Assembly: GCA_948144175.1 (NCBI GenBank)
Contig: CANXME010000853.1
Location: 372,001 to 436,000, forward strand
Reading direction: 5' to 3'
From: Closterium sp. NIES-65
Lineage: Eukaryota > Streptophyta > Zygnematophyceae > Desmidiales > Closteriaceae
DNA length: 64,000 nt
This document shows positions 885-63,319 of the stretch, in pieces (positions within the stretch are counted from its first letter, which is position 1; every line of letters starts with the position of its first letter). Made by a program: the position numbers and the translations under genes. The notes under the pieces are model-generated. The model saw only the letters and a list, made by a program, of their open reading frames with translations. It did not search any database and was not told the DNA's origin.

Positions 885-886
885 CC

Positions 887-9958: not shown

Positions 9959-10341
9959 ATGGCTTCCAACACAACCGCTGCTGTAGTGACTGCCAAGGGT
10001 GCGCCGACTGAGCACGCCTCTCCAAGGATGCCGGTACGCTCGTCGCTGGTGATGGGCCCGCTGGTTGAGTCGCCGTCCTTAATCACCAAAAGGACAGTCG
10101 GACCCTTCGAAGAACTGTTGAACACTGCACCTGCGAATGTTGACGCCACGAAGGAGGGAGACAAGGGAAATAACGCAAGTGGAGCGGATAAGGTCATAAA
10201 GCCGCCTGTTGCGGAAAGCTCCGTGCAAGCGACGCTGAAGCGAAGGAGATGGAAGATGATGGCTACCCTAGCGACGATCCCGATGAGGCAGTAGATCTGG
10301 CGAAGCTGGGTGAACTCGCCGCACACACAATGTTCACGATT
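9959..10341 (+). pseudogene. LINE ORF1, N-terminal part
   Basis: Begins MASNTTAAVVTAKGAP and continues through a Pro/Ser/Ala-rich stretch to an acidic segment (EDDGYPSDDPDEAVDL) and KLGELAAHTMFTI. The acidic part is in a different frame from the start, so one frameshift lies near 10220. The last bases before the gypsy element are CGATT, and CGATT recurs at 45126 on its far side. There the frame resumes as MDTMKEMLVFWEEKLTK, so the two stretches appear to be one ORF1 split by the gypsy insertion. Assignment to ORF1 is by continuity with the downstream zinc-knuckle part, not by a domain of its own. Confidence 0.55.
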
Positions 10342-10364
10342 ATTTTGCTTGTACCTGACAAATA

Positions 10365-10430
10365 TGTCTTTTACGAGTGCAATTGAGTGAACGAACGAGA
10401 ATTGCACTATCGAAGCAAGGGTACAATCAG
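10365..10430 (-). repeat. Partial 3' LTR of the gypsy element
   Basis: About 60 bp match the end of the LTR at 44757 (shared TTACGAGTGCAATTGAGTG and the following 40 bases with few differences). The rest of the LTR is not seen here. Confidence 0.6.
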
Positions 10431-10842
10431 AATGCGTGATGATTGGCTCGGTCGGCGGTCGTGTCATGCTGGCGGGGCGGTTGCGAGGCAGTTGGCTGGT
10501 GGATGGTACGTAAGGACGAAGCAGGATGACGTGGAAGGACGGGCTGACGTACCAGTCAGCAGGGAGGAGGAGGTGGGCGGTGAAGGGTGTGATCATATGG
10601 CTTATGCGAAATGGCCCGCAATTTCGGGGGTTAAGTTTTGGGGTGATGGGCAGGCGGAGGTTCTGGGTGTCGAGTAAAACTAGGTCGTCGGGCTGGTAAG
10701 TGACAGGTCGGCAGTGGCGATTGGCGTTGCGTTTAGTGATGATGTTCGATAATTCTATTGCGTCTGCTGCTTGCAAAATTACGGCGAACTGTTGCGCGCG
10801 TAGCACCGGATTTTTGAGATTTGGGGTCATGGGTACTGTGGG

Positions 10843-11105
10843 TGTCAGAATTATATTCTTATACCTGCATGTAGTTCTAGCTGTAGTGTAGATATGAACT
10901 TTATAGGTGGTGCACCTCTTTCTTCACTTGTTTGCTATATGTACTCTCTTGCTATAGTGAAAAACACCATTTTCCCAACTTTCTTGACACCCTTGCCTTG
11001 GCACAACCTACTCGACATCCTCCTTGGGCCTAGGCTACTAAGCCTAGGCCCTAGTTAAACCCAGCATCTAACTACATCATTCTCGTTCACTCTTAGATTT
11101 TCACA
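10843..11105 (+). repeat. 5' LTR of S1
   Basis: 263 bp, TGTCAGAATTATATTC...TTTTCACA. It contains the palindrome CCTAGGCTACTAAGCCTAGG. It differs in sequence from the shorter copia LTRs but is related to the solo LTR at 39092. Confidence 0.93.
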
Positions 11106-11964
11106 TGGATTCAGAGCGTGTTTCGTCCTGGCCTGTGGGCCCGCCTTATGATTCCGCTGCTATTTTTCCGGTCGCGCGCCTAGGGCGCGTGGCGATTTTC
11201 GTCTTGTCCCGCCCCCGGGTGGCGAGTGACACCTTCTCTGCACGTCGCGCGCCCCGTGGCACGCAACGGTGCCTTAAACTTGCCCGTCGTGCGCCCCGTG
11301 GCACGCGACGGTGCCCTGCTCGTCGTGCGCCCCGAGGCACACGACGGTGCTCTAAACTTGAACTTGCCCGTCGTGCGCCGCGTGGCACGCGACGGTGCTC
11401 TCCGCACCTGCACTCCCTGCAGCCGCCCTTGACCTACGTGCGCCGACCCTATTTAGCCGCTCTGCGGCTTTCTTCTCGCCCACCCCCTCCTCCTTCGTCT
11501 CCCTGCAGCCGTGGGGGGGAGGGTATGGGGGTGGCGGGTGTTGGAGTGTTGGGTAGAGAGCTTCCCTTCCCCTCCTCCTCCTTTCGTTCCCACTGCTGCA
11601 GCTGCCGCTAGGTGGGAGGGTGTGAGGGTGTGGGGGAGCAGGGGGAGTGGCACCGGGGTGGCGGGTGTGAGGCAACCAGCAGCCGTCCCTCCACCTCTCC
11701 TCTCTTCCCCCCCCCTCTGCTGCTCCTGCAGCAGTGTGGGGGAGGGGAAGGAGGAGGGTGAGGAGATGGAGTGGGTGACCAGCTCCTTCCCCTCCTGTGG
11801 TTTGGGGGGGGGGAGAGGGTAAGGGGGTGGCAGGAATTTCTTGCTTTAGACCTACTGCACCTGCTCATTTACCGTACCTGCTGTTGCTTGTTTTATTAGT
11901 ATGTGGTGTACCCCAGCAGGTTGTGTTTTGCACTTAGCTATTCCTGCATGCAGTTATGGGGGAG

Positions 11965-12227
11965 TGTCAGAATTATATTCTTATACCTGCATGTAGTTCT
12001 AGCTGTAGTGTAGATATGAACTTTATAGGTGGTGCACCTCTTTCTTCACTTGTTTGCTATATGTACTCTCTTGCTATAATGAACAACACCATTTTCCCAA
12101 CTTTCTTGACACCCTTGCCTTGGCACAACCTACTCGACATCCTCCTTGGGCCTAGGCTACTAAGCCTAGGCCCTAGTTAAACCTAGCATCTAACTACATC
12201 ATTCTCGTTCACTCTTAGACTTTCACA
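11965..12227 (+). repeat. 3' LTR of S1
   Basis: 263 bp, 4 differences from the 5' copy, followed by the GTGGG duplication at 12228-12232. Confidence 0.93.
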
Positions 12228-12636
12228 GTGGGGTCTTGTCCGTCGTTCAGGTAAAATGGTGACTGTTGGGTCGCGATGGATGGTGAGTTGTTGTATGCGA
12301 ACTCGATGAGTGGCAGCTGCTGTTCCCAGGTGGTCGGGTCGTCGCACATGGCTCGAAGAACTTGCTCCATGGTCTGGTTTGTCCGTTACGTCTATCCGTC
12401 AGTCTCGAGGTGGTACGAAGAACTAAACTGTAGTCGCGTGCCGAACTGTTGCCACAGGTTCCGCCAGAAGTTGCTGGTGAATTTCGTGTCGCGGTCGATG
12501 ATGATTGGTGCTGTTATCCTGTGCAGCCGAACGATGGTGAAGATGAAGAGGCGGGCTGTTTTTTGGGTTGTGATCGATTTGTACCAGGCTGCGAATTGTG
12601 CCGTTTTAGTCAGCCGATCGACGACGACCAGGATCG

Positions 12637-12767
12637 TGTCGGAACATTATAGCTTATGCTTTTGTGTAGGCTGTAGTGGGGTATCCCATAAGGGGTACAA
12701 CCCAATTAGGGTGAGTACTTGTACCCACTTCATTCATAGTTCATTCATTCTCGTTTCACTTTTCTCA
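12637..12767 (+). repeat. 5' LTR of A
   Basis: 131 bp, TGTCGGAACATTATAGC...TTTTCTCA, followed directly by the primer-binding site at 12768. Confidence 0.95.
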
Positions 12768-12879
12768 TGGTATCGAGCAGGTTCCCTCGTGGGAACTGTG
12801 CCTAGGGCCCACCAAGTCGAAAGTTTTTTTCCTGCCCGGAGCGCGCTCAGCCCGAGTCGTGCTCCCCTCTCTGACTTCG

Positions 12880-13730
12880 TCGAGCCGCCCTAGCGGCCAA
12901 GTCGCGCCGCCTTAGCGGCCCCTGATTCGTCGCCCTAGCGACCCCGTCGCCCTACCTACGGCCCCGGCCCCGTCGCCCTACCTGCGCCCCGGCCCCGTCG
13001 CCCTACCTGCGCCCAAGCCCCGTCGCCCTACCTGCGCCCCGGCCCCGTCGCCCTACCCGCGACCCTGGTCTCGTCGCCCCACCTGCGACCCTGGCCCCGT
13101 CGCCATACCTGCGGCCCCGGCCCTAGCCCCGTCGCCCTACCTGCGCCCCGGCCCCGGCTTCGTCGCCCTGCTGCGACCCCGGCCCCGTCGCCCCACCTCC
13201 GACCCCGGCCCCGTCCCCCTACCTGTGCCCTGGCCCCAGCCCCGTCGCCCTACCTGCGTACCGGCCCCGTCGCCCTACCTTCAACCCGGCCCCGTCGCCC
13301 TACCTGCGGCCCACCCGCCCTACCTGCGGCCCACCCGCCCTACCTGCGGCCCCGCCGCCCTCACCTGCGGTCCCCGCCGCCCTTACCTGCGGTCCCCACT
13401 GCCCTTACTTGCGGTCCCCGCCGCCCTCACTTGCAGCCCCGCCGCCTTCCCTGCGGCCTCGTCACCTGCTGCAGCGCCGCCCGCCACCCGAGCCGCCTCA
13501 CCTAGCCGAGCAGCCGACCGCCGCGCCGCCGTGCAGCAGCACAACCGAGCCGCCCAGCAGCTGAGCAGCCGGACAGCCGAGCATCCGAGCCGCCCAGCAG
13601 CCGAGCAGCTGAGCCGCCCTGCAGCCGAGCCGCCCAGCAGCCGAGCCGCCCTGCAGCCGAGCCGCCGTGCAGCCAAACCACCGAGCCGCCGAGCCGCCCT
13701 ACCTCCAAGCCGCCCGAGCAGCCCCGTCCG
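12880..13730 (+). repeat. C-rich minisatellite leader of A
   Basis: Tandem imperfect copies of GTCGCCCTACCTGCG plus CCCCGGCCCC, then CCGAGCCGCCCAGCAG-type repeats. It ends at 13731 with GTAAGCACAG, a splice-donor-like sequence, 68 bp before the gag ATG. Overlapping open frames here reflect the repeat. Confidence 0.8.
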
Positions 13731-13798
13731 GTAAGCACAGCGCCTCTGTCACTGCACTGCCCTTTCCCTACTGTGTGCGCTGCTAGTCTACTGTTGTC

Positions 13799-16700
13799 AT
13801 GGCTACCCCTAGTGTCCCCGCTTTTGACGCCGAGGGTCGAGCCATTGACTTTGACGTCTGGGTAGATGACCTGCAGCTATTCTTAAAGTGCGATAGGGCA
13901 GACGGTCTCTCCCTCTTTGACCTCACCTCTGGTGCCTCTCCTGCTCCTGCTGCTGATGCTGACGCCACTGTTCGCTCACAGTGGGCCACGCGCGATGCTG
14001 CTGCACGTCTTGCTGTGCGTCGCTACCTCCCTACCTCTGAGCGTGCGTACTTTAGTCAGTACAAGAGTGCTCAGACCTTGTACGACGCTGTAGTTGCACG
14101 CTACTCCTCCCCTTCCACTGCTGCACTGAGCCGTCTCATGCTACCGTACCTCTTCCCTGACCTTGCTGCCTTTCCCACAGTCACTGACCTCATAACGCAC
14201 CTCCGCACTAGTGACACTCGCTACCGCGCTAAGCTTCCTGCTGAGTTCTGCGCCAAGAACCCCCCCCCCCCATGTACATCACTCTCTACTACATAGTCAC
14301 TCGCCTCCCTGACTCACTTCGCGTAGTCAGGGACCACTTCCTCTCAGTCTGTCCCACCACTCTCACTGTTGACCTCCTCGAGAAGTCCCTCCTAGCGGCC
14401 GAGAAGAGCATAGTCGCTGTAGGGGCCTCTCGTGGTGACCCGCGCACCCCCATCTTTGAGGGGTGTTCCCCCTCCCCCCTTCTCCCCTCTATTGCCTCTG
14501 CTGCTGCAGCCGACCTCCTTGGTCTTGAGTCGGTCGGTGCGGCGTCTGCCCCTAGCGGGAGACACCGCTCTGGCAAGGGCAAAGGGGGCAGGGGCACTGG
14601 AGGAGCGAGCGGGGGCGGTGGAGGTGGAGGCGGCGGGGGAGTGGGGGTGGCGGTGGGAGTGGAGGTGGGGGTGGAGGTGTCGGTGGCGGCAGTGGAGGCG
14701 GAGGCGGCGGCGGCGGTGGCGGTGGGAGCGGAGGTGGCGGAGGTGGTGGCGGTGGAGGAGGCGGCGGAGGCGGCAGTAGTAGCGGAGGCGGCGGAGGCGG
14801 CAGGGGTGGAGGTGGAGCTGGTCACGGGTCTACGCAGAGGAGTGGCTCCGGTGATGGTCCACGCCAGCAGCAGTAGAGCGGTCGTGAGACCCTGTCCCCT
14901 CAGCAGCTCCGTGAGTGGTACACTTCACGCCAGCGGGGTGGGGGTTTTGGTCCGTGCACCTACGTCCTGCGCACCGGCGACCGTGCGGGTGAGCAGTGTG
15001 GGGGTGCGCACCCCACCCAGCGATGCTTTGGCCGCCTGACGGACGCGTGGCGCCACCAGTTCCCGGAGGCCACACAGATCCCTCACTGGGGCGAGCTGTC
15101 TAGGGCGGGAGTTGCCATCTATGATCTTGATTTTGATGCTATCCTTTCTGCCATGTATGCTGTGTCTATTAGTGATGAGGGTGACTGTTACCGGTGTTTC
15201 CCGCCCAATCCGGGCATTGAGACTGCTGCTCTAGGTACTGGTGAGGCTGCTGCCCTAGGTGCTTGCGACGCTGCTGCTCTAGGTGCTAGTGCGTCTGCGT
15301 CCTCAGGTACTGGTGAGTCTGCGCTCTCAGGTACTGAGTCGGCTTCGGCCTCCCTAACCTTCACCCTTGACTCTGGGGCTTCTCGCTCCTTCTTTCAGGA
15401 CCGTACCACACTCACGCCGCTTAGTTGGCCGGTTGCGGTGTCTCTAGCTGACCCCTCTGGGGGTCCTGTCCTGTCTCACTTCTCCACAGTCCTCCCGTGT
15501 CTGGCGGCTCCCTCTGGCACCCTGTCTGGTCTCTACCTCCCCTCGTTCTCTACGAACCTAGTGAGTGGTGCTGACCTACAGGATGGGGGAGTACACCAGT
15601 TCACTCCTGCGCGTCAGCGGGTGACGCACTGCACAGAGGCTAGCACAGGCCGACACTTGGCTACGTTTACCCGTCAGCCGGGGTCGAGCCTGTACACACT
15701 GACCACTGCGTCTCCTCCAGTTGTTGAGTCTGGTAGGGTAGCTGCGTCGGGTCAGGTGTTTGCTGCAGCGTCCAGGTCTGGTCCTGAGTCTGCCCCCTGT
15801 TCGTGTCGTCTCCTGTGTCACGAGACTCTTCTCTGGCACCACCGCCTTGGTCACCCCTCTCTGCTTCGGCTCAAAGGCATGGCCACCCGTCTTCTTGTTT
15901 CTGGTCTCCCCCGGTCCCTCCCTCCCCTTCCTTAGGGCCCTGGCCCTACCTGTGTCCCCTGTGTCGAGGGGCACCAGCGGGCTGCCCCTCACTCCTCCCA
16001 GTTTCCTCCGACAGAGGCCCCGCTACAGACGCTTCACATGGACGTGTGGGGCCCAGCCCGCGTCCGTGGACAGGGTCACGAGCGCTACTTCCTGCTCGTT
16101 GTTGACGACTACTCGCGTTACACCACAGTCTTCCCCTTGCGCAGCAAGGGTGATGTCACTGAGGTGCTGATCGACTGGATCCGCGCAGCTCGTCTCCAGC
16201 TCAGGCAGAGCTTTGGCTCGGACTTTCCTGTTCTGCGTCTGCACTCTGACAGAGGCGGAGAGTTTTCCTCTGGCCTTCTGAGAGCCTACTGTCACGCACG
16301 AGGCATCCGTCAGACCTTCACGCTTCCGGATTCCCCGCAGCAAAATGGGATTGCTGAGCGCCGCATTGGCATGGTCATGGACGTCGCTCGTACGTCTATG
16401 ATGCATGCGGCTGCTCCCCTTTTTCTGTGGCCGTTTGCGGTGAGGTACGCGGCGCATCAGATCAACCTACACCCCAGGGTCTCCAGGCCGGAGACCTCCC
16501 CAGCCTTGCTGTGGACGGGGAAGGTTGGCGATGCGTCGGCGTTCCGGGTCTGGGGATCTCGGGCGTTTGTCCGCGACTTGTCTGCTGACAAGCTATCCCC
16601 TCGTGATGCTCCTTGCGTCTTCCTGGGGTTCCCCCCTGACGCGCCTGGGTGGCAGTTCTACCACCCCACCTCTCGCCGTGTTCTGTCCTCCCATGACGTC

Positions 16701-19700
16701 ACGTTTGACGAGTCGGTCCCGTACTACCGCCTCTTCCCCTACCGCACTCCGTCCCTCCCCCCCCCCCCCGCTCTTCCTTGTACCAGGTCCCCCCCCGATA
16801 GACCCCCTCCCCCCTCAAGGTCCTGCCCCTTCAGGTGTGTCCCAGGTAGACGCAGTCGAGCCTGTCGAGGTTACTGGTGACTCTCGTGCTGCTGAGGGTA
16901 CTGTGCTTGGGGGTGCTGAGACTGGGGGTGCTGAGCCTGGGGGTGCTGAGCCTGGGGGTTCTGAGCCTGGGGGTAGTGAGCTTGGGGGTGCTGAGCCTGG
17001 GGGTGCTACGCCTGGGGGTGCTGTGCCTGGGAGTGCTACACCTGGGGGTGCTGAGCCTGCGGGTGCTGTGCCCGGGGGTGCTGAGCCTGGGGGTGCTGAG
17101 CCTAGGGGTGCTGAGCTTGGAGGTGCTATGCCTGGAGGTTCTCCGGTTGCTTTGTCTCTACGGGAGCCACTCTCTCCACAGGAGCTGCGCGAGTGGTTTG
17201 CCCGGCGCTGGAGCCGTGCTGCTGGTGCTAGAGGTTCTTCGGCTACTGAGGGTGCTGCTGTCGCGGGTCCCGGAGGTGCTCGTACTAGGAGTACTGGAGC
17301 TGCTGGGCCTGCGGGTTCGACTGGAGCTGGTGCTGCTGAGGGTGTTGGCGCTGAGACTTCCGCTGGCGGTCCTGCTGGGGGTACTCCTGGTGCTGCTGGA
17401 GGTTTTGGAGCTACTGGAGGTGCTGCTGGAGCGGGTGCTCCTATTGGGGGTACTAGTGCTGTCTCTGCTATGTCTGGCGTCGCCACGCGGCCTCGACCGT
17501 ACTTCGTTCCACTCCTGCAGCAGGTGCTTGGTCTTCCACCTTCTACTGGTCCTCCTCCTCCCTTAGAGTGTCCACAGCCTGTCCCGTCACAGTTACAGTT
17601 GCAGCCTACCTCCCCTTTGCCTACTCCTTCTCCCTACACTGGTCCTACTGGAGGTCTTGCTGAGCTTCGTGAGCCTGCGTCTCGCCCTACGTCGCCTGTC
17701 CGTCCTGCTCGCGCTAGTGGTCGTGTTTCGCGTCAGCGTCCTCCTCCTGTCCCTGGCACACACCGGATGTCTCTGCGTCTGTCCACTGCTCCTCTGCGTG
17801 CCCCTTTGCCTTCTCCTCCTGAGTCCTCTCTTCCTGCTCTTGCTGACCCAGAGTCAGAATCTCTTCGTGCTGCCAGTCCTACTGTCACGCGTCTGCTGGC
17901 TACTGTCGTCAGTGACCCTTCTTTCGAGTCTACTGCTGCGTCTGCCCTAGTTGCTGAGCTCGTCGACTTTGCTGCTCGCACTATGCTGCTAGTCTTGTCG
18001 CTGAGTCTGAGTCTGTCTGTCCTCCGTCCGTCGGGGGTGAGTGTGCCCTTGGCACGGACGTCCTTGAGGACAGGCAGGAGGAGTTCCAATGTCTGGGTGC
18101 TGCTTCACCTCATCTCGTGTCCGTACTGCTTACCCCTGAGGGAGACCCGGATGCACTTGACATCCCGACTCCGCGCTCCTACGCGGAGGCAATAGAGGGT
18201 CCCTACTCCTCTCAGTGGCAGGCAGCTATGGACACAGAGATGGCTTCCTGGAAGTCCACAGGCACCTACGTTGACGAGGTTCCCCTGCCTGGGGCAAACA
18301 TCGTCAGTGGCATGTGGATCTTCAGAGTGAAGCGGCCGCCGGGTTCTCCGCTTGTCTTCAAGGCACGTTACGTGGCTCGTGGCTTCAGTCAGCGGCAGGG
18401 AGTTGACTACTTTCAGACCTTCTCTCCCACCCCGAAGATGACCACTCTTCGGGTACTGCTGCACATTGCTGCTCACCGTGACTACGAGCTACACTCTCTC
18501 GACTTTAGCACAGCTTTCTTGAAGGGCAGCCTGCATGAGGAGATCTGGATGCGCCGCGCAACTGGCTTCACTGGGTCGTTCCCTCCCGGTACCCAGTGGA
18601 GCCTCCGGTGCGAGTTTACGGTCTTCGCCAGGCGCCACGTGAGTGGTAGGACACACTGAGGACTATAGTTGCGGCTCTTGGGTTTGATCCTTCTACTGCG
18701 GACCCGTCGCTGTTTCTACCCACCGACACCTCTCTGCCGCCGTTCTACGTCCTCGTGTACGTTGACGACTTGGTCTTTGCCACACCTGACACTGCTGGAC
18801 TTGCCTACGTGAAATCCGAGCTGCAGAAGAGACACACGTGCACAGACCTGGGTGAACTGCGCAGCTACCTTGGCTTGCAGATCACCCGGGACAGAGCACG
18901 CCGCACCATTACCCTGACTCAGTCACACATGGTGCAGCAGGTCCTTCAGCGCTTCGGCTTCACGTACTCCTCGCCTCAGGCCACTCCTCTGCCTACTCGC
19001 CACTCGCTCTCAGCTCTGTCTTCGGATGAGTCCGTAGAGTCGAGTGGCCCGTATCCAGAGTTTGTTGGCTGCCTCATGTACGTGATGACCTGCACACGAC
19101 CTGACCTTGCATACCCTCTTAGCATTCTCGCACGCTATGTTGCTCCTGGAAGACACCGACCAGAGCACATGGCTGCAGCGAAGAGGGTGTTGCGCTACTT
19201 GTGCAGTACGTCGGGCATGGGGCTAGTGCTTGGAGGGCACAGTCCAGTGGTCCTCACTGGGCACGCGGACGCTTCTTGGGCTGACGACCAGGCTACGCAG
19301 CGGTCGTCACAGGGTTACACCTTCAGCCTTGGTTCCGGCTCTGTCTCGTGGCGGGCTACTCGCTCGTCTTCTGTTCTCGGCTCCAGTTGTGAGGCTGAGA
19401 TCTACGCCGGGGCCATGGCTGCATTGGAGCTTCGCTGGCTCACCTACCTGCTGACTGACCTCGGAGAGCCGCCTCGTTCTCCTCCAGTGCTGTACGTAGA
19501 CAACAAGGCCATGCTGGCCTTGTGTCGCGAGCAGCGACTGGAGCACAGAACAAAGCACATTGCTCTCCGCTACTTCCTTGCTTGTGAGCTACAGCAGCGT
19601 TGACAGTTGCGGCTTGCGTACGTGGCCTCTGAGGCCAACACTGCTGATGTTTTCACCAAGGCACTTGCGCCTTGTGATCATCAGCGCTTCTGCACTCAGT

Positions 19701-19741
19701 TGGGTCTTGTCCCTGTCTTGCCTCACTTGCTCACCTCTTGA
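13799..19741 (+). pseudogene. A gag-pol remnant
   Basis: Gag begins MATPSVPAFDAEGRAIDF and includes LYDAVVARYSSPSTAALSRLM. A glycine-rich stretch and the knuckle (starting CTYVLRTGDRAGEQC) follow. Protease has LDSGASRSFF. Integrase has HHRLGHP, CVPCVEG, DVWGPARV, HSDRGGEF and QNGIAER. The linker is built of GGAEPGG-type repeats and a QELREWFARR motif. RT has FKARYVARGF, FSTAFL and YVDDLVFAT. RNase H has HADASWADD, SSCEAEIYA and YVDNKA. The end is LVPVLPHLL, as in M. Broken, several breaks. Confidence 0.92.
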
Positions 19742-19952
19742 CCTTGCTTGTACTGTTACATATATATATACCTGCTCTTGCTTGTCTAGCCTTACATATA
19801 TATGTACTCCTGCATGTGAACTGGCCTTGTGGCCTTGTACTTGAGCTCGGAATGTGTGGTGACTTTGTGATCCACCCTGAGCTTTGCTTTGTTTTGCTTT
19901 GCTTGACTGGTCTTGTGACCCTCTGTTCTCCCCCACTTTGCCTATGGGGGTG

Positions 19953-20083
19953 TGTTAGAACATTATAGCTTATGCTTTTGTGTAGGCTGTAGTGGGGTAT
20001 CCCATAAGGGGTACAACCCAATTAGGGTTAGTACTTGTACCCACTTCATTCATAGTTCATTCATTCTCGTTTCAGTTTTCTCA
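19953..20083 (+). repeat. 3' LTR of A
   Basis: 131 bp, 4 differences from the 5' copy, preceded by the polypurine tract at 19941-19952. Confidence 0.95.
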
Positions 20084-24344: not shown

Positions 24345-24377
<33 letters not shown>

Positions 24378-25495: not shown

Positions 25496-25599
25496 TGGTT
25501 TCAGAGCAGGTTCCCTAGTGGGACCGGTTTTTTTAGGGCCCACCACAAATTTTTTTTTCTGCCCTGCCCGAATCGCACTGTCGTGCCTGCCTGCCCTGT

Positions 25600-44735: not shown

Positions 44736-44756
44736 ATCGTAGGCTCTGATACCAAG

Positions 44757-50277: not shown

Positions 50278-50412
50278 TGTGAAGAAATGAGGAATGAAGA
50301 AGAGAGGAGGGGTTGCACTAGCAGCAGTTGGCATACATATAGGAAACCCTAATTGGGTTGTACTCGCTATAGAGTACCCCACTGCAGGCTAGACAATTAT
50401 AACATTCTGACA
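50278..50412 (-). repeat. 5' LTR of L
   Basis: 135 bp, 97% identical to the left copy, followed by GATGT. Confidence 0.9.
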
Positions 50413-51204: not shown

Positions 51205-51960
51205 ATGGATAAGGCCCACATGGTCACTTTTTGGGAGTTCAACATCAACGGACTCGGAGGCAGGGAAACACAAAAGAAGTGTAGAAAATGGATGAGAGAG
51301 AGAACAGACGTGACAATAATCACAGACACCAGGATACAGGCAGACCATAATTTCTGGACACAAATAAATCCGAGTGTAGTTGCAGTGTACGGGTCAGACC
51401 CTGACCAGTCGACGGGGGGGGGGGGGGGGGGGGGGGTTGCTATAGTGAGCTTCATACCTGGATTTGTGCCCGCAGACGGTTTCACTCATGAGTCTAGCAG
51501 GCTCCTAGCGGTGGTTGTCCATTGGGGTGGTTTGGAGATATTGCTGGTGGCAGCATATATCCCGGCGCGGGCGGTCAATAGGAGCAGCTTCTACAGAGAT
51601 AGCCTGAGGCCATTATTGCAGTCCTTGCCGGCGATCCCGAACGTTATGGTGATGGGAGATTTGAACGTTGTCGAGGATCCAGACCTGGACCGCACCTCTC
51701 AGTCCGGCTCTTCTGCGGAGAATCAACGGCTTCTGAGCTGCTAGGGGAACACGGACCCGAGGGATGCTTTCAGGCACATGCATCCGGAAAAAAGGGAATA
51801 TACTTTTTTTTCGCGAAAGCAACAAGGTCCAGCTCAAGGATCGACAGAGCACTGATAACACAACCACTACTGAGCAAACTGGTGGACACAAAGCATGTGG
51901 CGATCACGAACGGGATGACTGATCACTGGAACGGGATAGGAGTGATGCTGGAATCAGCGG
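51205..51960 (+). pseudogene. LINE ORF2, APE-type endonuclease
   Basis: Starts MDKAHMVTFWEFNINGLGG, 129 bp after ORF1. NINGLGG holds the metal-binding Asn, and TDTRIQ stands where the family has an ETR/E-type motif (Asp for Glu). VMGDLNVVED gives GDxN, and SRIDRALI...TDHW gives the C-terminal Asp/His pair. The endonuclease nicks target DNA to prime reverse transcription. A run of about 20 G near 51414-51436 codes a glycine stretch and may be unstable. A stop follows GDLN text at 51744, and the last motifs are in another frame. Confidence 0.8.
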
Positions 51961-53445: not shown

Positions 53446-53740
53446 TGTCAGTAGATCTGCACTGTGGATGCCCGATTGATCCTGGAGAGGGTTACAGGCA
53501 CGTTCGCCTGGGGGGTTATGGGCGCACTGACCCGCTATTGAAACAAGCCCTTTTATCCCAATGGTATAGTGGTTGGGATTCTGACATGGTATCAGAGCGG
53601 TCTCGGGTTCGATTCCCGGTGTATGCACATGTAGGCCTTTGCCGCTGTGCTTAGTCCTGAGCCTCCCAGTGTGGGGGGGTGTCAGTGGATCTGCACTGTG
53701 GATGCCCGATTGATCCTCGAGAGGGTTACAGGCACGTTCG
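53446..53740 (+). mobile_element. Miniature LTR element Q with tRNA-like promoter
   Basis: A 141-bp repeat (53446-53586, TGTCAGTAGATCTGC...ATTCTGACA) is followed by a primer site TGGTATCAGAGCGG, a 93-bp interior, a G-run purine tract (GTGTGGGGGGG) and the first 61 bp of a second copy (53680-53740), differing at 2 positions. That is TRIM architecture, under 300 bp in all. A box-like and B box-like sequences of a tRNA gene span the repeat/primer-site junction. No flanking duplication is visible, and the second repeat is incomplete. Inserted in LINE RT. A relative forms part of F. Confidence 0.75.
53562..53617 (+). promoter_or_regulatory. tRNA-like A box and B box in Q (candidate pol III promoter)
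   Basis: TGGTATAGTGGTT (53562-53574) resembles the A-box/D-arm text of tRNA-Asp, and GGGTTCGATTCCC (53605-53617) is a canonical B box/T-arm with perfect GGG/CCC stem and TTCGATT loop. Spacing is 44 bp start to start, normal for a tRNA gene. The part between them holds the repeat end CTGACA and the primer site. No transcript data are available. Confidence 0.5.
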
Positions 53741-54533
53741 GGAAACAGAAAGGGACGGAAGTGCTGCTGGGCATGCGCATGGGTGACTTGATACAAGAGT
53801 CAGCGGACGGGGCGTGCAGCCTCAAGGGAGTGGGTATACTGGCGAGGGAGCTAGGAAGCAAGGAAAAGGCAAAATGGGCATTGAAGGCTTTCAACGCGGC
53901 ACCCCAAAGCAGGAGAAAGTTGGTGCTCAAGAAGCTGACAAGTGAGGAGGTGGTAGCCACGGTAAAGCTATTACGGACGCAGAATAGTGCTACCGGAAAA
54001 TACATCTACTGGCAAATCGAGGGAGCGAAGGAAGACAAGGTGGTATGGAGGCTTTGTGACGTGGGAGTCGGCGGCCGCTACACGCCGTGCACGGGGAATC
54101 TGACGGTGGATTTCGGACTCCGACATGGAGTGCCGATGGTCACGGAGGGTGGCGTGTTTTTGGGGGCCATGGGATAGGTACGAACTAAGCTGCTGCTATC
54201 AGGGGTGTGCAAAGGGGGAGAGATGCTTCCGCTGAGGGAAATTAGGAAGGCGTTAGCAAGCTTGGCTGGCGCGCAGGAAAATAAGAGGAGATGGTAAGGG
54301 CAAAGGAGAGAGATTGAATGGAACAGGGTCATCAACCACAGGGTCTCACTTGCCACTCCCCGTCGGGCACGTGAAATCCTTCTGTGACTTCACTGTAGAA
54401 ACCTGCAGGTGGGCTGGAAACCTTTCTTCATGGGGGTGGTCTGCCCACACTACCGAGGGGAAGAAACACCAGAACACTGCCTTCTCGGCTGCCAGGCAGT
54501 GCAGGAGGTGGTGGGCCTTCTGAGAAGGGGTTT
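53741..54533 (+). pseudogene. LINE ORF2, post-RT region with zinc motif
   Basis: LLGMRMGDLIQESADGACSL...KKLTSEEVVATVKLLRTQ, WQIEGAKEDKVVWRL, then after several shifts VGWKPFFMGVVCPHYRGEETPEHCLLGCQAVQEVVGLLRRG. The C-P-H...ETPEHC...C pattern is the zinc-binding region found after RT in many plant-type LINEs. The frame stops where P is inserted at GGTTT and reads on at 62876. Confidence 0.8.
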
Positions 54534-54867
54534 TGTTGGTGCAACCCTACGGTTTGCACACGGCTTGTTGTCCGTGTGCGTGCATGTGTGTGTGTATGGA
54601 ATGGTATGAGGGCATGGGATAATATATATTTCATGCTTATAATTGTGTGTGAATGTTGAGTCATGATGTCGAGTGTGTGTGTCGAGTCAATAGCGAGTTA
54701 TCGCTAGACGCGTGTTACGGGGTCGTTTGTGTCTCGCGCGCGGTTTCTATTTTTGTCGTGCGCGGTTTCTATTTTGTCCTGTGTCGAACGTTTGGTGTGT
54801 CGCAGGTTTGTGCAGCAGACCCATCAAGAACTCAAGGATGAGTTTGTGATGAAGAGCCCGAGCCTTG

Positions 54868-55005
54868 TGTGAAGATAGGAAAACAGGAAATGAATGAACT
54901 ATGAATGAAAGTGGTACAAATATGAAACCCTAACTGGGTTGTACCCCCTATGGGATACCCCACTACAGCCTACACAGCAGTATAAGCTATAGATATGTTC
55001 TGACA
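54868..55005 (-). repeat. 3' LTR of M
   Basis: 138 bp. In sense it starts TGTCAGAACATATCTATAGC and ends CTATCTTCACA. Identical to 62242-62379. Confidence 0.97.
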
Positions 55006-55017
55006 CACCCCCATAGG
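55006..55017 (-). other. Polypurine tract of M
   Basis: In sense CCTATGGGGGTG directly before the 3' LTR. It primes plus-strand DNA in LTR retrotransposons. The same text precedes the 3' LTRs of A, F, C and N. Confidence 0.85.
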
Positions 55018-55212
55018 CAAAGTGGGGGAGAACAAGGGGTCACAAGACCAGTCAAGCAAGACAAAGCAAAGCTCAGGGTGGATCACAAAGTCACCACACA
55101 GTCCGAGCACAAGAGCAAGGCCAAAGGCCAGTTCACAAGCAAGAGTACAGACATATATATAAAGCTAGACAAGCAAGAGCAGGTATATATATATGTCACA
55201 GTACAAGTGAAG

Positions 55213-58200
55213 TCAAGAGGAGAGCAAGTGAGGCAAGACAGGCACAAGACCCAGCTGGGTGCAGAAGCGCTGATGGTCACAAGGCGCAAGTGCCTTGGTG
55301 AACACATCAGCAGTGTTGGCCTCAGAGGCCACGTACGCAAGTCGCAACTGACCACGCTGCTGCAGCTCACGAGCAAGGAAGTAGCGGAGAGCAATGTGCT
55401 TCGTTCTGTGCTCCAAGCGCTGCTCTCGACACAAGGCCAGCATAGCCTTGTTGTCTACGTACAGCACTGGAGGAGAACGAGGCGGCTCTCCAAGGTCAGT
55501 CAGCAGGTAGGTGAGCCAGCGAAGCTCCTGTGCAGCCATGGCCCCGGCGTAGATCTCAGCCTCACAACTGGAGCCGAGAACCGAAGACGAGCGAGTAGAC
55601 CGCCACGAGACAGAGCCGGAACCAAGGCTGAAGGTGTAACCCTGTGACGACCGCTGCGTAGCCTGGTCGTCAGCCCAAGAAGCGTCCGCGTGGCCGGTAA
55701 GGACCACTGGACTCCGCCCTCCAAGCACTAGCCCCATGCCTGACGTACTGCACAGGTAGCGCAATACCCTCTTCGCTGCAGCCATGTGCTCCGGTCTGTG
55801 TCTCCCAGGAGCAACATAGCGTGCAAGAATGCTCAGAGGGTATGCAAGGTCAGGTCGTGTGCAGGTCATCAGGTACATGAGGCAGCCAACAAGCTCCGCA
55901 TACGGACCACTCGACTCTACGGACTCATCCGAAGGCAGAGCTGAGAGTGAGTGGCGAGTAGGCAGAGGAGTGGCCTGAGGCGAGGAGTACGTGAAGCCGA
56001 AGCGCTGAAGGACCTGCTGCACCATGTGTGACTGAGTCAAGGTAATGGTGCGGCGTGCTCTGTCCCGAGTGATCTGCAAGCCAAGGTAGCTGCGCAGTTC
56101 ACCCAGGTCTGTGCACGTGTGTCTCTTCAACAGCTCGGACTTCACGTAGGCGAGTCCAGCAGTGTCCGCTGTGGCAAAGACCAGGTCGTCGACGTACACG
56201 AGGATGTAGAACGGCGGCAGGGAAGTGTCGGTGCGAAGAAACAGCGACGGGTCAGCAGTAGAAGGAGCAAACCCAAGAGCCGCAAGCGTAGTCCTCAGTG
56301 TGTCGTGCCACTCACGCGGTGCCTGGCGGAGACCGTAGACTGGCCGTCGGAGGCTCCACTGGGTGCCAGGAGGGAAAGTCCCAGTGAAGCCAGGTGGACG
56401 GCGAAGCCAGATCTCCTCGTGCAGGCTACCCTGTAAGAACGCAGTGCTGAAGTCGAGAGAGTGAAGCTCGTAGTCGCGCTGAGCGGCTATGTGCAGCAGC
56501 ACCCGAAGAGTAGTCATCTTCGGGGTGGGAGAGAAGGTCTGAAAGTAGTCAACTCCCTGCCGCTGACTGAAGCCACGAGCAACGTACCGTGCCTTGAAGA
56601 CAGGTGGAGAGCCTGGCGGCCGCTTCACCCTGAAGATCCACATGCCACTGACGATGTTCGCCCCAGGAGGGGGAACCGCGTCAACGTAGGTGCCTGTGGA
56701 CTTCCAGGAAGCCATCTCTGCATCCATAGCTGCCTGCCACTGAGAGGAGTAGGGACCCTCTACGGCCTCCGCGTAAGAACGCGGAGTCGGGATGTCTAGT
56801 GCATCCGGGTCTCCCTCAGGGGCAAGCAGTACAGACGCGAGATGAGGTGAAGCAGCCGCTAGACACTGTAACTCCTCCTGCCTGTCCTCTAGGACGTCCG
56901 TGCCAAGAGCACACTCACCCCCGACGGACGGAGGACAGACAGACGCAGACTCAGCAACAAGACTAGCAGCGTAGTCGAGACGACAGCGAGCAGCAAAGTC
57001 GACTAGCTCAGCGACTAGAGCAGACGCAGCAGTGGACTCAAAAGAGGGGTCAGTGACGACAGTAGCAAGCAGACGCGTGACAGTGGGACTGGCAGCACGA
57101 AGAGAGTCCGACTCAGGGTCCGCAAGCGCAGGAAGAGAGGACTCAGGAGGAGAAGGCAAAGGGGCACGCAGAGGAGCAGTGGACGGACGTAAAGACATCC
57201 GGTGCGTGCCAGGGACAGGAGGAGGACGCTGACGCGAACTGCGACCACTAGCGCGAGCAGCACGAACAGGCGACGCGGGACGAGACGCAGGCTCACGACG
57301 CTCAGCAAGACCTCCAGTAGGACCAGTGTAAGGAGAGGGAGCAGGCAGTGGAGAGGAAGGCTCCAGCAGGGACTGCGACTGGACAGGCGGTGGACCCTCT
57401 ACTGGAGGAGAAAGACCAAGAACCTGCTGAAGGAGCGGAACGAAGTACGGCCGAGGCCGCGCGGCAGCTCCAGACTCAGCAGGGACAGCACCAGCACCCT
57501 CAGCGACAGCACCAGCGCCACCCACACCTCCAGCGGCAGGACCAACAGCAGCAGGCTCAGCACGAACGCCCTCAGCAGCTCCAGCTCCAGGAGGACCTGC
57601 AGGGCCAGCAGCTCCGGGACCGGCTGCACCCGCACCCTCGACGGTCGAAGAAGCTCCAGCTCCAGCTCCAGCAGCACCTCCAGACTCAGCAGCACGCCTC
57701 CAGCGGCGAGCGAACCACTCGCGCAGCTCCTGTGGAGAGAGGGGCTCCCGGCGAGACGCAGCAGCAGGAGAAACCCCAGGCTCAGCAGCTCCAGACGCAG
57801 CACCCCCAGGCTCAGCAGCTCCCAGCTCAGCACCCCCAGGCTCAGCAGCTCCCGACCCAGCACCCCCAGACCCAGTACCTCCAGGCACAGCACCCCCCGG
57901 CTCAGCACCCCCAGGCTCCGCACCCTCCGCAGTAGCACCCTCAGGCCCAGCACCCCCAGCAGTAGCACCCCCAGGCTCAGCACCCCCGCGCACAGCACCC
58001 CCAGAGTCAGCACCCCCAGGCTCAGCACCCGCAGCAGCACCAGAGTCACCAGTAACCTCGACCGGGTCAACGGCGTCTACCTGGGACACACCTGAGGGGG
58101 CAGGTACCTGAGGGGGGAGGGGGTCTACCGGGGGGGGAACCGGCACAAGGAAGTCCGGGGGAGGGGGGAGGGAAGGAGTGCGGTAGGGGAAGAGACGGTA

Positions 58201-61140
58201 GAAGGGGACTGACTCGTCGAACGTGACGTCCTGGGAGGACAGAACACGACGAGAGGAGGGGTGGTAAAACTGCCACCCTGGGGCGTCAGTGGGGAAGCCA
58301 AGGAAGACACAGGGAGCAGCACGGGGGGACAGCTTGTCTGCAGACAAGTCGCGGACAAACGCCCGAGATCCCCAGACACGGAACACAGACGCATCGCCAA
58401 CCTTCCCTGTCCACAGCAAGACTGGGGACATCGCAGGCCGAGAGACCCGGGGGTGAAGGTTGAGCTGATGCGCCGCGTACCTCACAGCAAACGGCCACAG
58501 AAAATGGGGGGCAGCCGCATGCATCATGGACGTACGAGCGACATCCATGACCATGCCAATGCGGCGCTCAGCAATCCCATTTTGCTGAGGGGAGTCCGGA
58601 AGCGTGAAGGTCTGGCGGATCCCCCGTGCACGACAGTAGTCTCGCAGAAGGCGAGAAGAGAACTCTCCGCCTCTGTCAGAGTGCAGACGCAGAACAGGAA
58701 AGTCCGAGCCGAAGCTCTTCCTGAGCTGGAGACGAGCCTCGCGGATCCAGTCGATCAGCACCTCAGTGACCGCACCCTTGCTGCGCAAGGGGAGGACTGT
58801 GGTATAACGCGAGTAGTCGTCAACCACTAACAGGAAGTAGCGTTCGTAACCCTGCCCACGGACGGGGGCTGGGCCCCACACATCCATGTGAAGCGTCTGC
58901 AGGGGAGCCTCTGTCGGGGGGAAGTGGGAGGAGTGAGGAGCAGCCCGGAGGCGACCCTCGACACAGGGGACACAGGAAGGTCCTGGCCCGGAGGGGAGAG
59001 GAGGGAGAGACTGGGGAAGACCAGAGACAAGGACACGGGAAGCCATGCTCCGAAGACGGGGCAAGGAGGGGTGACCAAGACGGTGGTGCCACAGGAGAGT
59101 CTCGTGAGACAGGAGGCGACAAGAACAGGGGGCAGACTCAGGACCTGACCGGGAAGCAGCAGCAAACACCTGACCTGACGCAGCTACCCGACCAGACGCA
59201 GGGACAGGAGGAGACGAAGTGGTCAGGGTGTAGAGACTCGACCCCGGCCGACGCGAGAAAGTGGCCAGGTGTCGGCCTGTGTCTGCGTCCGTGCAGTGGG
59301 TCACCCGTCGCCTCGCAGGAGTGAACTGGTGAACCCCCGCATCCTGTAGGTCCGCACCACTCACCAAGTTCGTAGAGAACGAGGGAAGGTACAGACCAGA
59401 CAGGGTGCCCGAAGGGGCAGCCGGACACGGGAGGACAGTGGAGAAGTGAGACAGGACAGGACCCCCAGAGGGGTCAGCAAGGGAGACCGCAACCGGCCGG
59501 CCAAGAGGCGTAAGGGTAGTGCGGTCTCGAAAGAAGGAGCGAGAAGCCCCAGAGTCAAGTGTGAAAGTGAGGGAGGACGAGGGCGACGCAGTACCTGAGA
59601 GCGCAGTCTCACCAGCACCTGAGAGCGCAGTCTCACTAGTACCTGAGAGCGCAGACGCACTGGCACCTAGAGCAGCAGCCTCACAAGTACCTAGCGCAGC
59701 AGTACCAATGCCCGGGTCGGGCTGGAAACACCGGTAACCCTCATTCTCCTCACTATAAGTCACAGCATACATAGCAGAAAGGATAGCATCAAAATCAAGA
59801 TCAAAGATCGCTACACCAGCCCTAAGGAGCTCATCCCAGCGAGGGATCTCACTAGCCCCGGGGAACTGCTGACGCCAAGCGTCCGTGAGGCGGCCAAAGC
59901 AGCGCTGGGTGGAGTGGGCACCCCCACACTGCTCACCCGCGCGGTCGCCGGAACGAAGAATGTAGGCGCAGGGACCAGTACCCCCACCCCTCTGACGCGC
60001 AGCGTACCACTCACGAAGCTGCTGAGGCGGAGGGATGTCCCGCGAACGCTGCTGCTGCTGCCGCTGCGAGCGCTGGGCACCACCACCGCCGCTCCGCTGC
60101 TGGGTACCACCACGACCAGCTCCACCTCCTCCACCACCACCGCCTCCTCCGCCGCCGCCTCCACTGCCTCCACCTCCACCGCCTCCGCTCCCGCTGCTGC
60201 CTCCACCACCACCGCTGGCACTACCACTACCGTCTCCGCCGCTGCTGCCACCACCACCACCACCACCACCACTACTCCCGCCGCCACCCCCACTTCCTCC
60301 GCCGCCTCCGCCGCCACCGCCACCGCCCCCTCCAGCTCCGCCCGCGCCCTTGCCCCCCTTGCCCTTGCTAGAGCGACGTCTCCCACTAGGGGCAGACGCC
60401 GCGCCGACCGACTCAAGACCAAGCAGGTCGGCCGCAGCAGCAGAGGCAACAGAGGGCAGCAAGGGGGAAGGAGAGCACCCCTCAAAGATGGGGGTGCGAG
60501 GGTCACCACGAGAGGCACCTACAGCGACTATGCTCTTCTCCGCTGCGAGGAGGGCCTTCTCGAGGAGGTCGACGGTGAGAGTGGTGGGACAGACTGCGAG
60601 AAAGTGGTCCCTGACTACGCGGAGGGAGTCAGGGAGGCGCGCGACTACGTAGTAGAGAGTGATGTACATGGGGGGGGGGTTCTTAGCGCAGAACTCAGCA
60701 GGAAGGGCGGCGCGGTAGCGAGTGTCACTAGTGCGGAGGTGCGTAATGAGGTCAGTGACAGTGGGAAAGACAGAGAGGTCAGGAAAGAGGTAGGGAAGCA
60801 TGAGACGGCTCAGTGCAGCAGTGGCAGGGGAGGAGTAGCGCGCAACTACAGCGTCGTACAAGGTCTGAGCACTCTTGTACTGACTAAAGTGCGCACGCTC
60901 AGAGGTAGGGAGGTGGCGACGCACAGCAAGACGTGCAGCAGCATCGCGGGTGGCCCACTGAGAGCGGACAGTGGGATCAGCATCGGCAGCAGGAGCAGGA
61001 GAGGCGCCAGAGGTGAGGTCAAAGAGAGAAAGGCTGTCAGCTCTGTCGCACTGTAAGAAAAGCTGCAGGTCGTCTAGCCAGACCTCAAAATCAATGGCTC
61101 GACCCTCGGCGTCAAAGGCTAGGACACTAGGGGTGGCCAT
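55213..61140 (-). CDS. Gag-pol polyprotein of M (1975 aa)
   Basis: Single frame from MATPSVLAFDAEGR to LVPVLPHLLSS. Domains in order: copia-type Gag (1-230); Gly-rich run (about 265-340); QQLREWY module (about 372); unusual knuckle with Cys391, Cys405, His409, Cys414; protease LDSGASRSFF (about 528); integrase zinc ligands HHRLGHP (about 685) and CVPC (about 725), with acidic triad near 753 (DVWGP), 818 (HSDRGGEF) and 857 (NGIAER). A linker of about 470 residues follows, with GGAEPGG repeats (about 1027-1123) and QELREWF (about 1137). RT has FKARYVARGF (about 1517), FSTAFLQG (about 1565) and YVDD (about 1650). RNase H has DASWADD (about 1820), SCEAEI and YVDNKA. At 1975 aa it is longer than the 1300-1500 usual for copia, owing to the Gly run and linker. 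The ATG lies about 60 bp after the leader end. Protease is expected to release the enzymes. Confidence 0.96.
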   Translation of the reverse strand: MATPSVLAFDAEGRAIDFEVWLDDLQLFLQCDRADSLSLFDLTSGASPAPAADADPTVRSQWATRDAAARLAVRRHLPTSERAHFSQYKSAQTLYDAVVARYSSPATAALSRLMLPYLFPDLSVFPTVTDLITHLRTSDTRYRAALPAEFCAKNPPPMYITLYYVVARLPDSLRVVRDHFLAVCPTTLTVDLLEKALLAAEKSIVAVGASRGDPRTPIFEGCSPSPLLPSVASAAAADLLGLESVGAASAPSGRRRSSKGKGGKGAGGAGGGGGGGGGGGGGSGGGGGSSGGGGGGGGSSGGDGSGSASGGGGGSSGSGGGGGGGSGGGGGGGGGGGGGGAGRGGTQQRSGGGGAQRSQRQQQQRSRDIPPPQQLREWYAARQRGGGTGPCAYILRSGDRAGEQCGGAHSTQRCFGRLTDAWRQQFPGASEIPRWDELLRAGVAIFDLDFDAILSAMYAVTYSEENEGYRCFQPDPGIGTAALGTCEAAALGASASALSGTSETALSGAGETALSGTASPSSSLTFTLDSGASRSFFRDRTTLTPLGRPVAVSLADPSGGPVLSHFSTVLPCPAAPSGTLSGLYLPSFSTNLVSGADLQDAGVHQFTPARRRVTHCTDADTGRHLATFSRRPGSSLYTLTTSSPPVPASGRVAASGQVFAAASRSGPESAPCSCRLLSHETLLWHHRLGHPSLPRLRSMASRVLVSGLPQSLPPLPSGPGPSCVPCVEGRLRAAPHSSHFPPTEAPLQTLHMDVWGPAPVRGQGYERYFLLVVDDYSRYTTVLPLRSKGAVTEVLIDWIREARLQLRKSFGSDFPVLRLHSDRGGEFSSRLLRDYCRARGIRQTFTLPDSPQQNGIAERRIGMVMDVARTSMMHAAAPHFLWPFAVRYAAHQLNLHPRVSRPAMSPVLLWTGKVGDASVFRVWGSRAFVRDLSADKLSPRAAPCVFLGFPTDAPGWQFYHPSSRRVLSSQDVTFDESVPFYRLFPYRTPSLPPPPDFLVPVPPPVDPLPPQVPAPSGVSQVDAVDPVEVTGDSGAAAGAEPGGADSGGAVRGGAEPGGATAGGAGPEGATAEGAEPGGAEPGGAVPGGTGSGGAGSGAAEPGGAELGAAEPGGAASGAAEPGVSPAAASRREPLSPQELREWFARRWRRAAESGGAAGAGAGASSTVEGAGAAGPGAAGPAGPPGAGAAEGVRAEPAAVGPAAGGVGGAGAVAEGAGAVPAESGAAARPRPYFVPLLQQVLGLSPPVEGPPPVQSQSLLEPSSPLPAPSPYTGPTGGLAERREPASRPASPVRAARASGRSSRQRPPPVPGTHRMSLRPSTAPLRAPLPSPPESSLPALADPESDSLRAASPTVTRLLATVVTDPSFESTAASALVAELVDFAARCRLDYAASLVAESASVCPPSVGGECALGTDVLEDRQEELQCLAAASPHLASVLLAPEGDPDALDIPTPRSYAEAVEGPYSSQWQAAMDAEMASWKSTGTYVDAVPPPGANIVSGMWIFRVKRPPGSPPVFKARYVARGFSQRQGVDYFQTFSPTPKMTTLRVLLHIAAQRDYELHSLDFSTAFLQGSLHEEIWLRRPPGFTGTFPPGTQWSLRRPVYGLRQAPREWHDTLRTTLAALGFAPSTADPSLFLRTDTSLPPFYILVYVDDLVFATADTAGLAYVKSELLKRHTCTDLGELRSYLGLQITRDRARRTITLTQSHMVQQVLQRFGFTYSSPQATPLPTRHSLSALPSDESVESSGPYAELVGCLMYLMTCTRPDLAYPLSILARYVAPGRHRPEHMAAAKRVLRYLCSTSGMGLVLGGRSPVVLTGHADASWADDQATQRSSQGYTFSLGSGSVSWRSTRSSSVLGSSCEAEIYAGAMAAQELRWLTYLLTDLGEPPRSPPVLYVDNKAMLALCREQRLEHRTKHIALRYFLARELQQRGQLRLAYVASEANTADVFTKALAPCDHQRFCTQLGLVPVLPHLLSS

Positions 61141-61201
61141 GATGACGACAGCGAAGCAGTGTAAGCAGTAGGGAAAGAGGGCGCAGTGACAGAGGGACTG
61201 T

Positions 61202-62228
61202 GCTCACCAGGCAGGGCAAGTCGTGCAGCTCAGCAGAAAGGCGGATCGACTCCCGGGCAGCTCGGCAGCTGTGGGGCGGCTCGGGTGCTGCTGGGCGGCT
61301 CGGCCGCTGCTGGGCGGTCCGGCTGCTGCTGGGCGGCTCGGCTGCTGCTGGGCGGCTCGGCTGCTGCTGGGCGGCTCGGCTGCTGCTGGGCGGTCCGGCT
61401 GCTGCTGGGCGGCTCGGCTGCTGCTGGGCGGCTCGGCTGCTGCTGGGCGGGCCGGCTGCAGTGCAGCGGCGGGGCCTGGACAGAGGCCGGCGGGGCCGGG
61501 ACAGGTGCAGTGGCGGGCCGGGAAAGGTGCAGCGGCGGGCCGGGACAGGTGCAGCGGTGGGCTGGGACAGGTGCAGTGGCGGGCCGGGACAGGGGACGGC
61601 GGGGCCGGGTGTGCAGTGGCGGGGCCGTCAGGGTGCAGCGGCGGGCCGTCAGCAGGTACAGCGGCGGGCCGTCAGGGTGCAGCGGCGGGCCGTCAAAAGG
61701 TGCAGCGGCGGGCCGTCAGCAGGTACAGCGGCGGGCCGTCAGGGTGCAGCGGCGGGCCGTCAAAAGGTGCAGCGGCGGGCCGTCAAAAGGTGCAGCGGCA
61801 GGCCGTCAGGGCTCAGCGGCGGGCCGGGAAGGTGCAGCGGCGAGGCCGGGAGAGGGGACGGCGGGGCCGTGACAGGAAACGGCGGGGCCGGCAGAATGCA
61901 GCGGCGGGCCGTCAAAAAAAAAAAAAAAAAAAAAAAAAAAACGGGGCCCGCGGCCGCGACGAAGCGGCCGCGTGGCCGATTCGAGGGCGGCGGGGCACAG
62001 CCGGGCCGAGAGGGCGGCGCGGCGCGGCCGTAAAGCCCGCGCGACGTGGGCCCGAGCCGCGCGCGCTAAAAAAAAAATTTTCGCGCGCTACTCGCGGGGG
62101 GGCCCACAAAGGCAGCGGGAAATGCACTAAGGGGGGAGGGGGGGGAGCGCGCCTCGGGGAGAGTAGGGCGCTCCGGGCAGAGAGAATATCGTGGGTGGGC
62201 CCAAAAAAAATCGGTCCTTAAGAGGGAC
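61202..62228 (-). repeat. Minisatellite leader of M
   Basis: Units around GTGCAGCGGCGGGCCGTC (61470-61910) and GCTGCTGGGCGGCTCGG (61280-61460), plus a run of about 27 A (plus strand) near 61914. In sense the gag-side end is GCCTGGTGAGCAC (GTGAGC complement at 61202-61207). Three long overlapping plus-strand frames at 61186-62221 are repeat artefacts. No gene is seen. Confidence 0.8.
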
Positions 62229-62241
62229 CCGCTCTATACCA
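62229..62241 (-). other. Primer-binding site of M
   Basis: In sense TGGTATAGAGCGG directly after the 5' LTR, a variant of the plant-type TGGTATCAGAGC site complementary to the 3' end of initiator tRNA-Met. Confidence 0.8.
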
Positions 62242-62379
62242 TGTGAAGATAGGAAAACAGGAAATGAATGAACTATGAATGAAAGTGGTACAAATATGAA
62301 ACCCTAACTGGGTTGTACCCCCTATGGGATACCCCACTACAGCCTACACAGCAGTATAAGCTATAGATATGTTCTGACA
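62242..62379 (-). repeat. 5' LTR of M
   Basis: 138 bp, identical to the 3' copy, followed by CCTTG. Confidence 0.97.
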
Positions 62380-62875
62380 CCTTGGTGTCAAGCCTCAAGT
62401 GATTTCGAAGCTCGCCAAAAGGGTACACCTCAAGAGATTGAAGATAGTTACATTACTTTGTGTAGTGTAACATTTCACTTGGTGTAGGCCCTAGTGAAGG
62501 GTAGTTTCGAGACCCTTCGTGGTTGGGGACAGTGTGGCACTGTTCCATATCACTGTGCCTCGGCTCTTGGGGTTTGTAGGAGCTGGGAGTCATTCCCAAC
62601 TCGTAACTCTTCCTAACTCTTCCTATCTTGTGTTCTAAGGCTATATTGCTGCCATAGTGCTGTTCATTCAAACCGACGCTGTGTCGTCAATACTCGTGCG
62701 ATTTAAATTGCCTAGTGTAGGCGAGAACACGACGCTCCAGATCCAAGTTGAATCAAGTCATTTACTGTTGTGACCAGAACGCTATGAACGTTTGAAGCCG
62801 CTGTGCAGAAATCCGACTGTGCACTCTATCTTTCGTTTTAGGCACATTGGAGCCTACCGTGACTATAACAGGTTT

Positions 62876-63319
62876 GGCGGCAATGAATTCGGAGTTGACA
62901 TGGCAGGACCTCGAGGATCTGCTCTTCATGGAGAGGAGCACGAAATCAGGTTTTCTGGAGGGGATTTGGATTGCCACTGTGGTGCACCAAATATGGCTGG
63001 CGAGGTGCAACACAGTATGGCGAAACGAGCCTTTTCAAGCTGGGAGGGTGGCCCGGCAGGCAGTGGTGAATTTTTTCGCACACGCAAGGGTTTACCGCTT
63101 GGCGCGGGAGGTGACAAAGCGAAAAAAGGGTCAGGTGCTGAATGGTGACTCGGCACACCTGGCAACCGACGAGGCGACGGTGATGAGACAGATCTGCAGC
63201 GGCCGCGCACCGCTGACGTGGAGGATCAGCTTCAGATCAATCTAGGACAACCCGAGGACGACGCATCAACCATCGTAGATGCACTAGAGGGGATCTTCGA
63301 TACTGGCTATTGTAGCGCT
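62876..63319 (+). pseudogene. LINE ORF2, C-terminal tail
   Basis: Continues in frame from 54533 across P: ...LLRRG + LAAMNSELTWQDLEDLLFMERSTKSGF, LEGIWIATVVHQIWLARCNTVWRNE, then VTKRKKGQVLNGDSAHL to a stop at 63245. The IW...IW.AR.N.VWRN text is the usual tail after the zinc region. N was inserted just beyond, at 63320. Confidence 0.8.

Follow-up and report, generated by a model that had tools for sequence, protein, structure and literature searches.

Can a single long interspersed nuclear element (LINE) be followed through tens of kilobases of other repeats, and do the elements between its pieces tell the order in which they arrived? These questions are raised by a stretch of 64,000 nucleotides from Closterium sp. 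NIES-65 (the window; contig CANXME010000853.1, G000:C852:372001-436000), in a genome assembly of 874 Mb in 2400 contigs. Positions above 64000 or below 1 lie outside the window on the same contig, C852, and are given in window numbering. Nearly the whole region is made of repeats. The original prediction was that a LINE of 5 kb is spread over 53 kb by nested insertions, with its pieces in the correct order and on one strand. Our analysis indicates that one LINE has almost certainly been interrupted by five or more retrotransposons that came later, and that some of these received insertions themselves. The pieces are in order and all on the plus strand, and their net length of about 5.2 kb agrees with the prediction, but the span is at least 60.7 kb; position 63319, taken as the end of the LINE, is only the place where the copia element Q interrupts it, and the 3' end with a poly(A) tail lies at 70538.

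The first piece (9864-10368) holds the 5' part and open reading frame 1 (ORF1) and aligns from 9864 with L033 on contig C2111, the closest relative of the 5' part (71% identity); the LINE must truly begin somewhere in 9615-9864, or still farther to the left. The piece at 45113-45182, which also aligns with L033, ends in CAAAC and is followed by 48457-48712 (ORF1, ending in GATGT), 50418-53437 (the end of ORF1, and ORF2 with the reverse transcriptase), 53741-54533 (left edge approximate, ending in GGTTT) and 62876-63319 (ending in GCGCT). The last piece, 70464-70538, is beyond the window and closes with 14 A residues (70525-70538). A reverse transcriptase domain (PF00078) was detected at 52778-53362 (E = 1.2e-17) and in the relative L014 (E = 9e-40), in whose ORF2 an endonuclease domain (PF03372, E = 2e-6) precedes it, suggesting a LINE of the endonuclease-reverse transcriptase, L1-like kind. 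The relatives used for comparison (L010-L026), which may include pairs of homologous contigs and are therefore not all independent, are approximately 68-79% identical to the LINE in the main blocks and 56-64% in parts of the 5' region.

The original prediction gave 5-bp target duplications for three elements, G (CAAAC), L (GATGT) and P (GGTTT), and proposed that other copies of the LINE should run on across the insertion sites. All three duplications are exact on both sides. G is a copia element on the plus strand (45183-48451) whose right half has been deleted; it retains its left long terminal repeat (LTR) and only the last 10 bp or so of the right one, fused at CATTT to sequence of the integrase region. 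The short LTR element L (48713-50412) is absent from L033, which aligns base by base across the site, and LINE protein was found on both sides of it, in order, in 14 of the 17 relatives (L013 and L023 match on one side and L026 on neither). P (54534-62870) is a solo LTR of approximately 820 bp into which M has inserted. Both sides of P are joined in 15 of the 17 relatives, L018 and L026 having no match beyond the junction; in four of these 15 (L020-L023) approximately 45 bases around the junction are unaligned and of equal length. We regard P as an LTR because its matches elsewhere include same-strand pairs, with a spacing of 5.63-5.67 kb in four cases and of 10.7 kb in one, among the 40 candidates scored out of 2592. 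The predicted insertion of M into P was confirmed: M (54868-62379, minus strand) is flanked by CCTTG, has identical LTRs and meets an exact empty site in C520, a contig homologous to C852. M is a Ty1/copia element, with an open frame of 1996 amino acids in which the integrase domain rve (766-872) is followed by RVT_2 (1513-1747). Q (63320-70458, of which 63320-64000 is in the window) lies on the minus strand between GCGCT duplications; at its site the LINE runs directly to the 3' end and a poly(A) tail in 12 of the 13 relatives displayed, and the thirteenth, L024, is interrupted there by another LTR-like sequence.

The remaining gap is filled by a gypsy element on the minus strand (10369-45107, with its own insertions), which carries domains of gag (PF03732), protease (PF13975) and the H2C2 integrase zinc finger (PF17921); no long open frame was found upstream of the integrase, where reverse transcriptase and RNase H are expected. 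Two insertions in its left part, the short LTR element E (10843-12227) and the copia element F (12637-20083, plus strand), have exact duplications of GTGGG and GATCG, respectively. The five other gypsy copies compared here (L035-L039) all run across both sites, so E and F are siblings in gypsy rather than nested one in the other as originally claimed; because the element letters of that claim were not tied to coordinates, this holds if its E and F are the elements at these positions. A further short LTR element, S (23409-24981), was recognised by its LTRs and a TGTTG duplication only. The next 19.4 kb (25364-44738) is a copia block with ATCG repeated at both flanks, which we consider an insertion because the gypsy copy L041 joins 25363 to 44739. 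The block consists of about five copia pieces in both orientations. An LTR stands at each edge, and the two are oppositely oriented, each apparently a 5' LTR that faces into the block; one guess is that a single target was hit twice. In a copia piece of the block lies a solo LTR of 262 bp (39092-39353) with a CTCAG duplication, absent from C520. The predicted depth of at least four levels is thus supported, with the order LINE, gypsy, copia block and solo LTR from the outside inward.

C520 matches the window at 1-3328 (93%), 23954-25064 (97.75%) and 24987-25358 (99%), and in colinear blocks of 94-98% identity over 38940-74000. It is the homologous partner of C852 here; the sequences cannot tell alleles from a recent duplication. 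No allelic match on C520 was found for 9616-10341 (all seven candidates scored), for 12228-12636 (40 of 2859 scored) or for 20090-23405 (40 of 7226 scored), so that 9616-23405 seems to be absent from that contig. The right end of gypsy and the elements G, L, P and Q are all held independently by C520, at the same places. The two contigs differ in details: C520 has about 2.7 kb of extra copia sequence (1067119-1069858) relative to window positions 41342-41350, where the window is joined at a nine-base match and may have lost it, and it lacks 637 bp of the LINE (53713-54349) with a short match at the join (L009, 7212-7214). The LTRs of Q (63320-63445 and 70333-70458) are identical to each other and to those on C520 (126 of 126 bases each), and its interior shows 133 mismatches between the contigs in 6894 aligned columns. 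The identity of the LTRs may be due to chance, few mutations being expected in 126 bp.

The edges of gypsy were originally placed at 10341 and 45126 on the strength of CGATT, which is present at both places; on that reading the LINE would have lost about 40 bases. Our alignments place the junction at 10368/45113, between ATGTC and ATGCC. L033 is homologous to 10342-10366 and from 45113 onward and aligns through both claimed edges, so that LINE sequence extends 27 bases past the left CGATT mark and begins 13 bases ahead of the right-hand mark. An alignment with the full LTR retained by L031, a chimeric copy of part of the nest described below, likewise puts the outer limits of the LTRs at 10369 and 45107; the left LTR is whole in that copy and cut short after approximately 10430 in the window. 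Joining at 10368/45113 leaves the LINE in frame relative to L033, as had been claimed for the CGATT join, and gives 122 matches to L033 in 168 columns, the single gap column lying elsewhere than at the junction, as against 78 of 127 columns for the join at 10341/45126. We rejected CGATT as the target duplication because homologous LINE sequence runs on through the site; it is a chance match, and the edges it marks are scarcely credible.

A mis-assembly, in which unrelated copies of the LINE were stitched together through repeats, would be easiest in a region made almost wholly of them, and C852 is the only contig that shows the junctions of F, M and the solo LTR. However, C520 agrees with C852 in the positions of the right end of gypsy and of G, L, P and Q, the left LINE-gypsy junction is held independently by L031 and its counterpart L032, and mis-joining would not create the exact 5-bp duplications found at nine insertions (E, F, S, G, L, P, M, Q and the solo LTR). 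Moreover, other LINE copies show the sites of gypsy, L, P and Q empty, the gypsy copy L041 does so for the copia block, and C520 for M and the solo LTR. We therefore consider mis-assembly unlikely at most junctions, and very improbable as the explanation of the whole. Besides the junctions seen on one contig, several observations weigh against a single LINE split by successive insertions. The flanks of gypsy agree at 4 of 5 bases, and the repeat flanking the copia block has only 4 bases. At G the duplication is exact, but the LINE there is 17 nt shorter than L033 (counted from the alignment) and the frame changes, so its flanks make an imperfect empty site. A target duplication of the LINE itself was not found (the bases after the tail have no match of at least 10 between -10000 and 74000).

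We nevertheless favour one LINE interrupted repeatedly. The order and strand of the pieces, the duplications and the empty sites are observed directly, and the enzymology of LINE and LTR retrotransposon insertion is established for these families. Judging from the tail and the domains, the LINE would have been inserted with its poly(A) by target-primed reverse transcription. Gypsy, G, L, the parent of P and Q later entered it singly, with short target duplications. Further insertions struck these elements, gypsy being hit by E, F, S and the copia block, the block by its solo LTR, and P by M. Deletions trimmed the nest, removing the right half of G, most of the left LTR of gypsy and approximately 585 bp of the LINE. 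M and the solo LTR at 39092-39353 presumably arrived after C852 and C520 had separated.

The original prediction expected the nest to give the relative ages of a dozen families. By nesting, the LINE is older than gypsy, G, L, P and Q; gypsy is older than E, F, S and the copia block; the block predates its solo LTR, and P predates M. This order is partial, because siblings carry no relative order, and it does not suffice to rank all of a dozen families. The Kimura two-parameter distances between LTRs were 0.109 for gypsy (using the left LTR kept in L031), 0.040 for A (a copia element to the left of the LINE), 0.035 for S, 0.031 for F, 0.030 for L, 0.015 for E and 0 for M and Q, with wide errors, the LTRs being 126-263 bp long. 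They agree with nesting in every pair of known order, the outer element being older and the inner one younger. Nests order insertions without a clock, and because nesting can here be set beside LTR divergence, empty sites and the homologous contig at one locus, this nest offers a usable check on LTR dating in the lineage.

A search with the LINE stretch 9616-10341 gave two matches of 98% besides the window, at C852:569357 and C520:1211969. The surrounding regions, L031 (C852:566000-571000) and L032 (C520:1209500-1213000), hold one chimeric element at homologous sites, approximately 185 kb from the source nest on one contig; no chimera was found at unlinked sites among all seven candidates scored. 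The carrier is an E-type LTR element with a CACCC duplication, itself inside a copia element, and its own LTRs are of a separate type, 92-95% like those in the window. It contains LINE sequence from 10181, the full left LTR of gypsy, gypsy 10431-10842 and the part of E that starts at 10843 and stops near 11.8 kb; the gypsy LTR apart, the segments of L031 are 97.8-98.8% identical to the window. Since L031 holds it complete, the left gypsy LTR of the window was once whole. The copy on C520 is without the inner LTR and the E body, and a comparison of the two outer LTRs gives 1 difference in 252 bases on C520 and 6 in 251 on C852.

The chimera probably arose by DNA repair, with the nest as template for either gap repair or break-induced copying, which put the LINE-gypsy-E segment into an E-type element. 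We prefer this to a new retrotransposition because source and copy are only about 185 kb apart; a new insertion would fall so near by chance in approximately 4 of 10,000 cases (2 x 185 kb / 874 Mb). One edge of the segment is a switch within shared E sequence near 11.8 kb and the other a two-base match, as repair would leave, but template switching by reverse transcriptase yields the same pair of edges. The carrier also has LTRs and CACCC, as a newly inserted element should, although the same would be true of an E element that underwent repair after its insertion. It is accordingly a less likely but conceivable course that an RNA started upstream read through LINE, gypsy and E and was switched into a new E element. 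A chimera so formed would make a nested repeat the donor of a mobile unit, that is, 5'-transduction by an LTR element, and captured nest fragments, if more are found, would bear on the exchange of sequence among repeats.

Three observations concern other features of the region and the assembly. Between the fourth and fifth pieces of the LINE lies an element of approximately 300 bp (53438-53740) with direct repeats of about 58 bp at its ends, which in the alignment with relatives replaces the 585 bp or so of LINE mentioned above; 15 other copies at 97-98% were found among the 40 candidates scored out of 958. ARAGORN detected no tRNA in 53300-53900, and we therefore call this element only short and multicopy. 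To the left of the LINE, copia A (3346-9127) interrupts one element, whose stretches 878-3305 and 9132-9604 are assigned together because copies elsewhere in the genome (e.g. C2053, C160 and C1944) have them separated by about 346 bp. Finally, the assembly gave 146 matches for light-harvesting genes and 98 for GRAS genes, the latter a mark of streptophytes, as would be expected of a green plant or a streptophyte alga. Since these matches often occur as pairs of equal score on two contigs, a large part of the genome may have been assembled twice, as two haplotypes or homeologues.

Our literature search found nothing on LTR retrotransposons of Closterium, and no report joining read-through or template switching of LTR elements with capture from nests. 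Nested retrotransposons themselves are long known and ordinary in repeat-rich genomes, although the history of this nest can be followed nearly to the single base; the LINE host and the captured fragment are the details of interest here. In 12 plant genomes, 1491 nested pairs of LTR retrotransposons have been described (PMC6911290), and they are like the present nest in having younger elements within older ones, duplications of 4-5 bp and younger inner LTRs. The present nest differs in that a LINE hosts all the rest and that its structure can be checked on another, homologous contig. The complex LTR elements of Triticeae ascribed to template switching resemble L031 (PMC1950507) in being chimeras with an internal LTR and a target duplication; L031 differs in adding LINE and gypsy sequence from upstream of E and in lying near its source. 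Plant retrotransposon transduction and gene capture (PMC13317346) likewise place flanking sequence inside a retrotransposon, but the captured sequence in our case consists of nested repeats itself and was more likely brought in by DNA repair.

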